Of a DNA stretch of 64,000 nucleotides, positions 24,467 to 52,991 are shown in pieces. A model generated the notes under the pieces. It was not told the origin of the DNA and ran no database searches. It saw only the letters and a program-made list of their open reading frames with translations. Source of the DNA: an uncultured Lachnospiraceae bacterium (GTDB lineage: Bacteria; Bacillota; Clostridia; Lachnospirales; Lachnospiraceae); assembly GCA_946544235.1 (NCBI GenBank), contig CAMNMC010000070.1, forward strand, positions 1-64,000, in the 5' to 3' direction. Position 1 is the first letter of the stretch. The number at the start of each line of letters is the position of its first letter. Both the position numbers and the translations under genes were made by a program.

Positions 24467-24549
24467 TCGGATCGGGTTCGAAAAATATATACACTTGAAT
24501 GTGTTATTTGATATAATTGAAAGCGTATATTATTATAGGATATGTACAT

Positions 24550-24620
24550 GATTTGCACGCATATATGCCTCCGAAGGCGTATTTTAGCTACAACTGAGGA
24601 GGCATATATGCGTGCAAATC
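24550..24620 (+). repeat. Conserved-loop/variable-stem hairpin, site A
   Basis: 23-bp perfect stem gatttgcacgcatatatgcctcc / ggaggcatatatgcgtgcaaatc around 25-nt loop GAAGGCGTATTTTAGCTACAACTGA. Confidence 0.95.
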
Positions 24621-24654
24621 TATTGAATATTTATGAAATACAAGGTAGTAAAAT

Positions 24655-42859: not shown

Positions 42860-42869
42860 TCATGTAATA

Positions 42870-42929
42870 AACAGTAATATGTGTGCTGAGTGAGTGTTTC
42901 TACTACATATGAGGAGATATATTGCTGTT
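42870..42929 (+). repeat. Conserved-loop/variable-stem hairpin, degenerate site H
   Basis: Arms aacagtaatatgtgtgct / ggagatatattgctgtt pair with several G-T wobbles; 25-nt loop GAGTGAGTGTTTCTACTACATATGA resembles the family consensus. Confidence 0.6.
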
Positions 42930-42967
42930 AAATAATATAGTTTATAATAGTATAGATGTATACTGAG

Positions 42968-43032
42968 ATACAGAAAAATATACCCATGAGGGCGTATTTT
43001 ATCTACAAACAAATGGGTATATTTTTCTGTAT
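42968..43032 (+). repeat. Conserved-loop/variable-stem hairpin, site B
   Basis: 20-bp perfect stem atacagaaaaatatacccat / atgggtatatttttctgtat; 25-nt loop GAGGGCGTATTTTATCTACAAACAA. Confidence 0.95.
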
Positions 43033-43068
43033 ATAAATATGTTTAATATAATAACAGAGGAAGAGTAT

Positions 43069-48510: not shown

Positions 48511-48535
48511 TTGGATATAAATATTTCATATAAAT

Positions 48536-48601
48536 GATGCAGAGGATATACGCCTCTTCGGTTGTAGCAAGAATACGCCCTCAGAGGCGTATATCCTCAT
48601 C
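48536..48601 (-). repeat. Conserved-loop/variable-stem hairpin, site F (reverse orientation)
   Basis: 16-bp perfect core stem gaggatatacgcctct / agaggcgtatatcctc; loop reads GAGGGCGTATTCTTGCTACAACCGA on the minus strand (25 nt). Confidence 0.93.
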
Positions 48602-48620
48602 GCGTAGATGTATTAATTAT

Positions 48621-48670
48621 GATATATATCTTCAAGTGTAGTTGTCGAATACGCCTTCGGAGATATATGT
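48621..48670 (-). repeat. Conserved-loop/variable-stem hairpin, degenerate site G (reverse orientation)
   Basis: Minus strand GAAGGCGTATTCGACAACTACACTTGA between atatatct / agatatat arms. Confidence 0.55.
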
Positions 48671-48712
48671 GTTAATGATAACTATAACTAGATAAATAAA
48701 TGGAAATAAATT

Positions 48713-50669: not shown

Positions 50670-51443
50670 ATGAAGACCAGGATAAAATACAGTAAAACAG
50701 GTCCGGTAAAGTTTATAAGTCATCTTGATGTGATGAGGTATTTTCAGAAAGCTATAAGACGTGCTGAGCTGGATATAAGCTACAGCACCGGTATGAGCCC
50801 TCATCAGATCATTTCTTTTGCTGCGCCGATGCCTCTTATGATGGAATCTGTCGGAGAATATTGTGATGCGGAATTTGAAAGTGTTACAAGCAGTAAGGAA
50901 ATGGTGGAAGCCTTTAACAGCGTTGCTTCGCCTTTTATAAAAATGCTTGATATAGTTCTCCTTCCGGACGATGCGATCAATTCAATGGCTGCAGTAACTG
51001 CTTCGGATTATCAGATAACACTGACCGATAAAGGACGTGAGAAGTTTGGAATATCGGGAGATGATTACAGCTTTTTTGATTCACTAATAGGGAATATTAA
51101 TTCTTCCGATAAGGTTGAAGTTCTGAAAAAAACCAAGAAGTCGGAAACTGTAACCGATATTAAACCGCTTATTTATGAATTGAATTCATCCAGAAATAAA
51201 ACAAAAGACAGTGATAAAACTTTGAATAGCGATGTATCTGGCGTGGATAAAGAAGGCATATACATGCTCCTCGCAACCGGAAGTCACGAGAACATAAAGC
51301 CTGAAAACGTTCTTACTGCTATCTGTGATAAAGCCGGTAAAGAATACGACCGCTTTGATTACAACATACTGCGACTCGAAACATATTTCGGAAGTCCTTC
51401 CGAAGGCTTCAAACCGCTGAGTTCCGCAGGCAACCAATTCTAA
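50670..51443 (+). CDS. TIGR03936/DUF2344 radical SAM-associated protein
   Basis: TRIKYSKTGPVKFISHLDVMRYFQKAIRRAELDISYSTGMSPHQIISFAAPM; adjacent to TIGR03960 gene. Confidence 0.9.
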   Translation: MKTRIKYSKTGPVKFISHLDVMRYFQKAIRRAELDISYSTGMSPHQIISFAAPMPLMMESVGEYCDAEFESVTSSKEMVEAFNSVASPFIKMLDIVLLPDDAINSMAAVTASDYQITLTDKGREKFGISGDDYSFFDSLIGNINSSDKVEVLKKTKKSETVTDIKPLIYELNSSRNKTKDSDKTLNSDVSGVDKEGIYMLLATGSHENIKPENVLTAICDKAGKEYDRFDYNILRLETYFGSPSEGFKPLSSAGNQF

Positions 51444-51455
51444 TAGATTAACCTC

Positions 51456-51528
51456 GGAATTAGTGTAGAATATGCCCCTTCAGTTGTAGGTGAAATACGC
51501 CTTCAGGGGCATATTCTACACCAATTCC
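51456..51528 (-). repeat. Conserved-loop/variable-stem hairpin, site E (reverse orientation)
   Basis: 24-bp stem with 1 mismatch ggaattagtgtagaatatgcccct / aggggcatattctacaccaattcc; minus-strand loop GAAGGCGTATTTCACCTACAACTGA. Confidence 0.95.
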
Positions 51529-51552
51529 TTGAGACTTTTTCAATTATAATGA

Positions 51553-51625
51553 GGGTTTGCGCTTCAGTGTACCCCTGAAGGCGTATTCTTGCTACAACTG
51601 AAGGGGTACACTGAAGCGCAAACCC
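51553..51625 (+). repeat. Conserved-loop/variable-stem hairpin, site D
   Basis: 24-bp perfect stem gggtttgcgcttcagtgtacccct / aggggtacactgaagcgcaaaccc; loop GAAGGCGTATTCTTGCTACAACTGA. Confidence 0.96.
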
Positions 51626-51658
51626 GGGGATAATTAAGTGCGTTTTCTATTGAAATGA

Positions 51659-51729
51659 GGAATCAGAAAAAATATGCCCACGAAGGCGTATTTTATCTAC
51701 AACTGAGTGGGCATATTTTTTCTGATTCC
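51659..51729 (+). repeat. Conserved-loop/variable-stem hairpin, site C
   Basis: 23-bp perfect stem ggaatcagaaaaaatatgcccac / gtgggcatattttttctgattcc; loop GAAGGCGTATTTTATCTACAACTGA. Confidence 0.96.
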
Positions 51730-51743
51730 GGAGTAAATTAAGA

Positions 51744-52991
51744 ATGAAAGCAAAGATCGTTATTACAAACGCCGCCTGTGGCCATACAGCATATATTTTT
51801 GAGGATGAGGTTCTTTCGGAGGTTCATCCTTTTTCAGATGAAGAGGAAACGGGCAGCATTTATGTTGCAGTGGTTGATAATATAGTTGAAAATCTTAAGG
51901 CTGCCTTTCTCAGGATCGAGACAGGAGAAGTATTATATTATTCTCTTGAGGAGAACGAGGGAAGGCATATATTTATTAAACACGGCAATAAGAGCAAGGT
52001 CAGAAAGGGTGACTGGCTTCTTGTTCAGATCACTAAAGCTGCTAAGGGAAGTAAAAAAGCTCAGGCTACGGCTGATATTTCTCTTAAAGGAAGATATGCG
52101 GTCATTAATCGTTCAGGAAGAGTCGGTGTATCCAAGAGGATAACGGAGGATGAAAAGAGAGAAGATCTAAAAGAGCTTTATGAGAGACTTAAAAATATAT
52201 ATTCATCAGAACTGACTGATGACTTTGGTATCATCTTCAGATCGGCTGCAGTATCGGCTAAGAATGAAGATGATATTGAAGAGGATACCATAAAAACATT
52301 ACGTAAACTAACCGGGATCATCGAACGCGCAGAAAACAGCTCAGCGGGCTGCTGCATTTATAAGAGTCAGGTTGATATAGCTGCCTACATTATGGACATA
52401 AAGGCTAAATCGCTTTATGATAAGATAACGGTTATAACAGATATTGGTGAAGTGTATGAAGATATTTACAGCGCAGGTTTCATAAGTGAAACTGATGCAT
52501 CTGATGATACAGATAAAGAAGCAGAACTTATTTTCCATGATGAGAAATATCAATCTCCGGGAGCACTTTTTAATATAGACCGTACACTTTCAATAATGTT
52601 CGGCAGAAAGATCTATCTTAAATCCGGAGGATATCTGGTGGTTGATCTTACGGAAGCACTGACAGTTATTGATGTTAACACAGGTAAGGATATTAAGGGC
52701 AGCAGTTTGCCGGAACATATACTTAAGACCAATAATGAAGCGGCAGAACTGATTGCAAGACTTCTCAGGATCAGAAACCTTTCCGGTATCATCATAATTG
52801 ATTTTATAAATATGAGAGATGAGTTATCTGAGGAAAAGGTTATTGGTGAACTTAAAAAACATATTTCCAGGGATCACAGAAAGTGCTTTTTCGTTGATAT
52901 GACCGAGCTTGGTCTGGCCGAACTTACAAGACAGAGGATAGGCACAGGTTATATTCTTGAAAATCTTCTCACAAATATAAATAATAAATGA
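51744..52991 (+). CDS. rng: Ribonuclease G/E family
   Basis: GSIYVAVVDNIVENLKAAFLRI S1-like start; YLVVDLTEALTVIDVNTGK; GIIIIDFINMRD; LGLAELTRQRIG. Confidence 0.93.
   Translation: MKAKIVITNAACGHTAYIFEDEVLSEVHPFSDEEETGSIYVAVVDNIVENLKAAFLRIETGEVLYYSLEENEGRHIFIKHGNKSKVRKGDWLLVQITKAAKGSKKAQATADISLKGRYAVINRSGRVGVSKRITEDEKREDLKELYERLKNIYSSELTDDFGIIFRSAAVSAKNEDDIEEDTIKTLRKLTGIIERAENSSAGCCIYKSQVDIAAYIMDIKAKSLYDKITVITDIGEVYEDIYSAGFISETDASDDTDKEAELIFHDEKYQSPGALFNIDRTLSIMFGRKIYLKSGGYLVVDLTEALTVIDVNTGKDIKGSSLPEHILKTNNEAAELIARLLRIRNLSGIIIIDFINMRDELSEEKVIGELKKHISRDHRKCFFVDMTELGLAELTRQRIGTGYILENLLTNINNK

Follow-up and report, generated by a model that had tools for sequence, protein, structure and literature searches.

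Three hairpins upstream of rng

The DNA analysed here (the window) is a 64,000-nucleotide stretch from the genome of an uncultured Lachnospiraceae bacterium, referred to below as this genome. Within it, a 300-bp gap separates the stop codon (51443) of a DUF2344 (TIGR03936-type) gene (50670..51443, + strand) from the start (51744) of rng, a gene of the RNase E/G family (51744..52991, + strand). Three inverted repeats, E, D and C, occupy 217 of the 300 bp. Element E (51456-51528, - strand) consists of 24-bp arms at 51456-51479 and 51505-51528 around a tip at 51480-51504, and its tip strand is antisense to both neighbouring genes. Element D (51553-51625, + strand) has perfect 24-bp arms (51553-51576 and 51602-51625) and a tip at 51577-51601, and element C (51659-51729, + strand) has perfect 23-bp arms (51659-51681 and 51707-51729) and a tip at 51682-51706. 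A G.T pair in E, in the tip-strand reading, is the sole stem imperfection among the three. The preliminary description of this cluster was exact as to the number, orientations (-, +, +) and coordinates of the hairpins, and rightly stated that they fill most of the gap and that their outer stems are unrelated (D and C are 29% identical over the outer 14 nt).

All three elements carry a 25-nt tip, GAAGGCGTATTnynnCTACAACTGA, whose small, conserved inner structure comprises a GA/GA step, two pairs, a 2x2 loop and GTA/TAC. Matches to the tip pattern number 5 in the window and zero in shuffled sequence. Folded as RNA, the gap region gave a z-score of -16.7, and E, D and C each gave z of about -10 when folded as single-stranded DNA. 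On the tip strand, the 3′ flanks of E, D and C are GGGGATAATT, GGAGTAAATT and GAGGTTAATC, respectively.

The window holds further copies. A short element at 24546-24624 (+) has a counterpart with an unrelated stem at the orthologous site of Lachnospiraceae bacterium C6A11. A degenerate element at 42860-42939 (+) lies in tandem with a short element at 42961-43039 (+), whose site is occupied in C6A11 too. The site of another short element, at 48531-48609 (-), is also occupied in both C6A11 and Eubacterium sp. RGIG2622, with an unrelated stem, and a weak element is found at 48607-48685 (-).

Size and range of the hairpin family

A search for the tip pattern that tolerated as many as 3 mismatches gave 49 occurrences in this genome and none in a reversed control. 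A covariance model based on 33 short copies found 68 matches in this genome, 44 in C6A11, 14 in RGIG2622, 7 in RUG671 and 0-2 in other congeners; no match was obtained outside the genus in a sample of 298 genomes representing 297 genera of the bacterial family. The hairpins are restricted to a single Lachnospiraceae genus of gut and rumen bacteria, and to few of its species. The family is apparently undescribed, no published account having been found in the literature searched. Rfam 15 gave no family above its gathering threshold, and the sub-threshold matches were mostly to microRNA families, as is usual for long hairpins; membership of a known structured RNA family was rejected on these scores. 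Carriage by phages or plasmids was likewise rejected, the tip patterns being absent from IMG/VR and the long core described below from phage and plasmid collections.

The stems of the short form show strong covariation: 94.3% of cells are paired and double changes occur in 25 of 29 pairs, with far lower values in shuffled and slid controls. Copies have in common an inner stem, ATATGCCYCT, and a weak outer-stem consensus, GATTC/GAATC. There is also a long form (about 20 copies in this genome, 2 in C6A11), in which the core extends to ~130 nt and includes several mini-hairpins, many of them closed by GNA triloops; 44 of its 74 consensus pairs show at least two Watson-Crick types. In each element, conservation covers the inner stem and the tip, which measures 25 nt in short and ~130 nt in long copies, and pairing is the only requirement on the outer stem.

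Individual loci carry additional features. One complete long-form element has a truncated element tip just 5′ of it (L028:1440-1500, contig C79 of this genome). In another (L041:1540-1870; contig C35, 15040-15370), the long form holds a nested insert with inverted repeats of its own, TATAGCGGTTCTAAAATAACT...AGTTATTTAGAAATCGCTATA; this insert resembles a MITE of unrelated origin with a duplication of CTA. A short contig assigned to another congener (L180; G067:C243) is 99% identical to this genome on one side of an element and is possibly a mis-binned contig from a near strain.

Placement and selected strand

None of 135 copies lies inside a predicted gene, by gene calls made with a simple codon-usage script on which all placement counts rest. 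Between co-directional genes, 78 copies are in the sense and 35 in the antisense orientation; 17 lie between convergent genes and 3 between divergent genes. This placement is REP-like, in that the elements are extragenic, multi-copy and mostly outside divergent gaps.

If the pairing of arms in duplex DNA alone mattered, G.T and A.C mismatches should be equally frequent. On the tip strand, 116 G.T were counted against 25 A.C, with the consensus wobble column left out. The same excess was seen in copies chosen by tip alone (28 vs. 6) and in long forms (62 vs. 16). It was not reversed in copies antisense to genes, where the tip strand carries 23 G.T and 8 A.C (p = 0.011), although significance is lost when these copies are restricted to mid-stem positions (10 to 5), where numbers are small. 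From the G.T excess on the tip strand, antisense copies included, it follows that one folded single strand, always of the same polarity, has been selected. Selection on the transcript strand was rejected, as the wobble excess is unreversed in antisense copies, and there are better candidates for the selected strand than the local transcript. The working form is probably single-stranded DNA, although a G.T excess would be equally expected of RNA, for example RNA made from another promoter.

Clusters of hairpins

At the rng gap, the flanks of D and C resemble each other in register. The left flank of D (51533..51552, +) matches that of C (51639-51658) at 15 of 20 positions, with 83% identity over 18 nt, and the right flank of D (GGGGATAATTAAG, 51626..51639, +) matches that of C (51730-51743), which carries the rng ribosome-binding region, at 11 of 14. 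The summed score was not reached by any of 2458 background pairs, and a gapped shuffle test on these short, AT-rich sequences was weak (p = 0.10 and 0.21). The likeness in register, set beside the weak gapped test, makes tandem duplication probable, short of proof. On these alignments, D and C probably arose by tandem duplication, their stems changing afterwards. The flanks of element E resemble those of neither D nor C; being inverted, E may represent a separate acquisition.

Clusters elsewhere in this genome contain chimeric units, in which each side carries the arm of one neighbour (contigs C14 and C105). Such units result from unequal crossing over within the shared tip. The serC-serA gap holds one short element in genome G028, a triple cluster in this genome and a long form in C6A11; the triple cluster is one of the two with chimeric units, the other being that of contig C14. 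Clusters within 250 bp number 12 in this genome and 0 among the C6A11 copies examined, indicating that clustering is a habit of the lineage rather than a property of the site. These counts fit local duplication in this lineage better than the preferred location that had been suggested for the rng hairpins. The rng gaps of five congeners contain zero elements.

Stem turnover at orthologous sites

About a dozen elements of this genome occupy intergenic gaps that also hold an element in C6A11 or relatives, with orientation kept in all but one case. Over 14 orthologous comparisons with this genome, outer-arm identity averaged 0.55, against a background of 0.54. The genes on either side retain 52% identity at four-fold degenerate sites, and adding the unchanged fraction that this implies to the background gives a rough estimate of ~0.68 for outer arms under neutral drift; the 0.55 found is lower, on a sample that is small and not independent throughout. 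Long forms behave similarly: where cores are 93-98% identical, the outer arms are no more alike than background, and core and stem similarity are uncorrelated (r = -0.11). No whole stem common to two non-tandem copies was found within one genome.

At many sites, stems change faster than their flanks. Because orthologous sites keep the element yet have unrelated stems, stem difference is no measure of independence. The earlier conclusion that unrelated stems imply independent acquisitions is not supported, given the matching flanks of D and C and the divergent stems seen both at orthologous sites and around nearly identical cores. The associated argument against simple tandem duplication survives in part: duplication without subsequent change is excluded by three stems that are unrelated and all pair well, but the pattern of three unrelated stems at rng is compatible with tandem duplication.

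Stem turnover is not universal. Six pairs of elements in RGIG2622 and C6A11 have near-identical stems. Four of these sit in tracts that are near-identical, flanks included, which points to recent recombination, and they were not counted as evidence of selection in place (C6A11 tracts L148:848, L137:4168, L133:856 and L132:790; RGIG2622 counterparts L171, L176, L168 and L167). The remaining two were passed down at their sites and differ by 3-5 changes, among them one compensatory pair and two wobble changes; these vertically inherited stems are more conserved than neutral sites. At the serC-serA site, one stem is common to G028 and this genome. The conserved RGIG2622/C6A11 stems and the stem shared with G028 indicate that turnover is punctuated rather than uniform or steady.

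Two loci show repeats at the stem. The left flank of a distant element (L103:1440-1580; G007:C5:72184-72264) is a tandem array whose unit resembles TCAGCGTATTTAATTAGG. Its TCAGCGTA doubles as the outer arm on the left, which suggests that flanking sequence can serve to extend or duplicate an arm. At L055:1590-1670 (contig C77 of this genome, 8292-8370), the right arm and flank are tandemly duplicated over about 29 bp. The spare copy has C where the arm has T, so that this pair probably changed from G-C to G.T in place.

Discussion

Taken together, our observations can be read as describing a REP-like palindrome family with recognition of the tip in single-stranded DNA, past mobility, recombination through the tip, stems that change in jumps, and a duplication that produced D and C at rng. 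We give this reading, taken as a whole, an even chance of being correct. Under it, the tip-strand hairpin would fold as single-stranded DNA exposed at replication, and a putative protein would recognise the tip. The elements would have been mobile in the past and would now be mainly inherited in place and locally duplicated, while recombination or conversion through the common tip would duplicate units and homogenise tips. Neither a mobiliser nor a tip-binding protein was found, and no movement of an element was observed. Stems would change in jumps and stay paired, the simplest route being replication template switching between arms, which has been described as creating perfect stems and refreshing or repairing them in one event (PMC8794818). 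Selection would maintain pairing on the tip strand. At rng, an element beside the ribosome-binding site would have been tandemly duplicated to give D and C, whose stems diverged later, and E would be a separate, inverted copy.

Other explanations account for some of these data. Each rng hairpin could have been a separate insertion at a preferred site, with a stem of its own that it brought along or gained there, as the unrelated stems, the mixed orientation, the lack of the cluster in five congeners and the distinct flanks of E would suggest; sites occupied in several species could then be insertion hot spots. Against this are the in-register flanks of D and C, the C6A11 copies without clusters, the chimeric units that reveal duplication via crossing over elsewhere, and a stem foot without a common insertion motif (none was found there except the weak GATTC/GAATC). 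In addition, recent insertions carrying their stems should share whole stems, which non-tandem copies never do, and we regard independent acquisition as rather unlikely. If the elements were instead cis-acting hairpins that stabilise or process polycistronic mRNA, selected in place with a stem that drifts while remaining paired, their location close behind stop codons in operons, their rarity between divergent genes and the orientation kept at orthologous sites, with one exception, would follow naturally, and similarly placed REPs have been discussed as RNA elements (PMC3733652). However, about a quarter of the copies are antisense, and their wobble excess still falls on the tip strand where the reverse is predicted; moreover, stems at many orthologous sites differ beyond the neutral expectation. 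An mRNA function of this kind is therefore judged unlikely. Intrinsic terminators with a decorated loop would likewise be strong hairpins located behind genes, but the stems lack a T-run, a terminator scan found no site spanning a whole hairpin, and most copies have co-directional genes on both sides, the next start often being a few tens of bases away, so that this identity is very improbable.

A further alternative is that mobility belongs to the tip or long core only, and that every insertion builds a fresh palindromic stem out of the host sequence flanking it. Highly similar long cores with unrelated stems, the lack of correlation between the two, the absence of whole stems common to non-tandem paralogues, and the alternation of short and long cores at one site all fit such a process. 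The inner ATATGCCYCT and weak outer GATTC/GAATC are shared, however, so stems are not purely host-derived; G028 and this genome also have one stem in common at serC-serA, and no convincing empty stem was found, all of which leaves a site-made stem an improbable origin. Insertion of the core into pre-existing empty palindromes was rejected: a search for them returned 0 matches in this genome and C6A11, and two doubtful ones in RGIG2622, no more than in the reversed control. More tentatively, and with considerable doubt, we suggest that the stem is not inherited with the core: the tip or long core would spread or convert between sites, and the perfectly paired stem of each site would be made or remade in a single event, such as a template switch at the fork. 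Were the stem rewritten separately in this manner, its replacement would leave position, orientation and tip unchanged.

A conserved stem is what usually defines the palindromic repeats of bacteria. The rng family inverts this pattern, with a fixed tip, a stem that is free yet paired, and a wobble asymmetry that marks the folded strand. More than 100 natural copies, many at sites occupied in multiple species, amount to a natural experiment on the origin and change of long perfect stems, a question also raised for RNA genes and template switching. The family also offers a handle for finding a tip-recognising protein.

Comparison with known systems

Like MITEs, the hairpins are small, non-coding, multi-copy, intergenic inverted repeats. 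MITEs have terminal inverted repeats in common with an autonomous transposon, whereas the arms of the rng family vary from copy to copy, no foot motif is conserved, and no such transposon was found. Integron attC sites are recognised as folded single strands and have stems of variable sequence; however, in attC sites the conserved boxes, R and L, are located at the base of the stem, and in the rng family it is the tip that is conserved and the base that is not. Mitochondrial hairpin elements (sponge RHE and, as cited elsewhere, the double-hairpin elements of Allomyces) are likewise dispersed and intergenic, with tandem insertions giving multi-hairpin clusters. In sponge RHE, stems are conserved and substitutions fall in the loops (PMC2800124), the opposite of the fixed tip and variable stem seen here.

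Parallels exist with REPs, short multi-copy extragenic palindromes found mostly in co-directional or convergent gaps and often arranged as dimers or clusters (PMC3733652). The rng family resembles REPs and REPINs, which are GTAG- or CGTC-tagged and mobilised by RAYTs, in copy number, extragenic placement and clustering. It differs in its stems, which are 23-24 bp and freely variable around a conserved tip, whereas REP stems are 5-13 bp with a family-defined sequence. No GTAG or CGTC tetranucleotide was found at the hairpin foot, and 99 copies showed no conserved foot motif. The Y1 (TnpA-REP) transposase domain PF01797 is absent from both element-rich genomes, this one (G000, 82% complete) and C6A11 (G061, 100% complete), and a Y1/RAYT transposase was rejected as the mobiliser on that basis; PF01797 was detected in 36 of the 61 genomes searched, and the majority of these do not contain the element. 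With neither the foot tetranucleotide nor the transposase found, and a stem that is not family-defined, membership of the REP family was rejected, and the hairpins are a variant of bacterial extragenic palindromes that stands outside the REP family proper.
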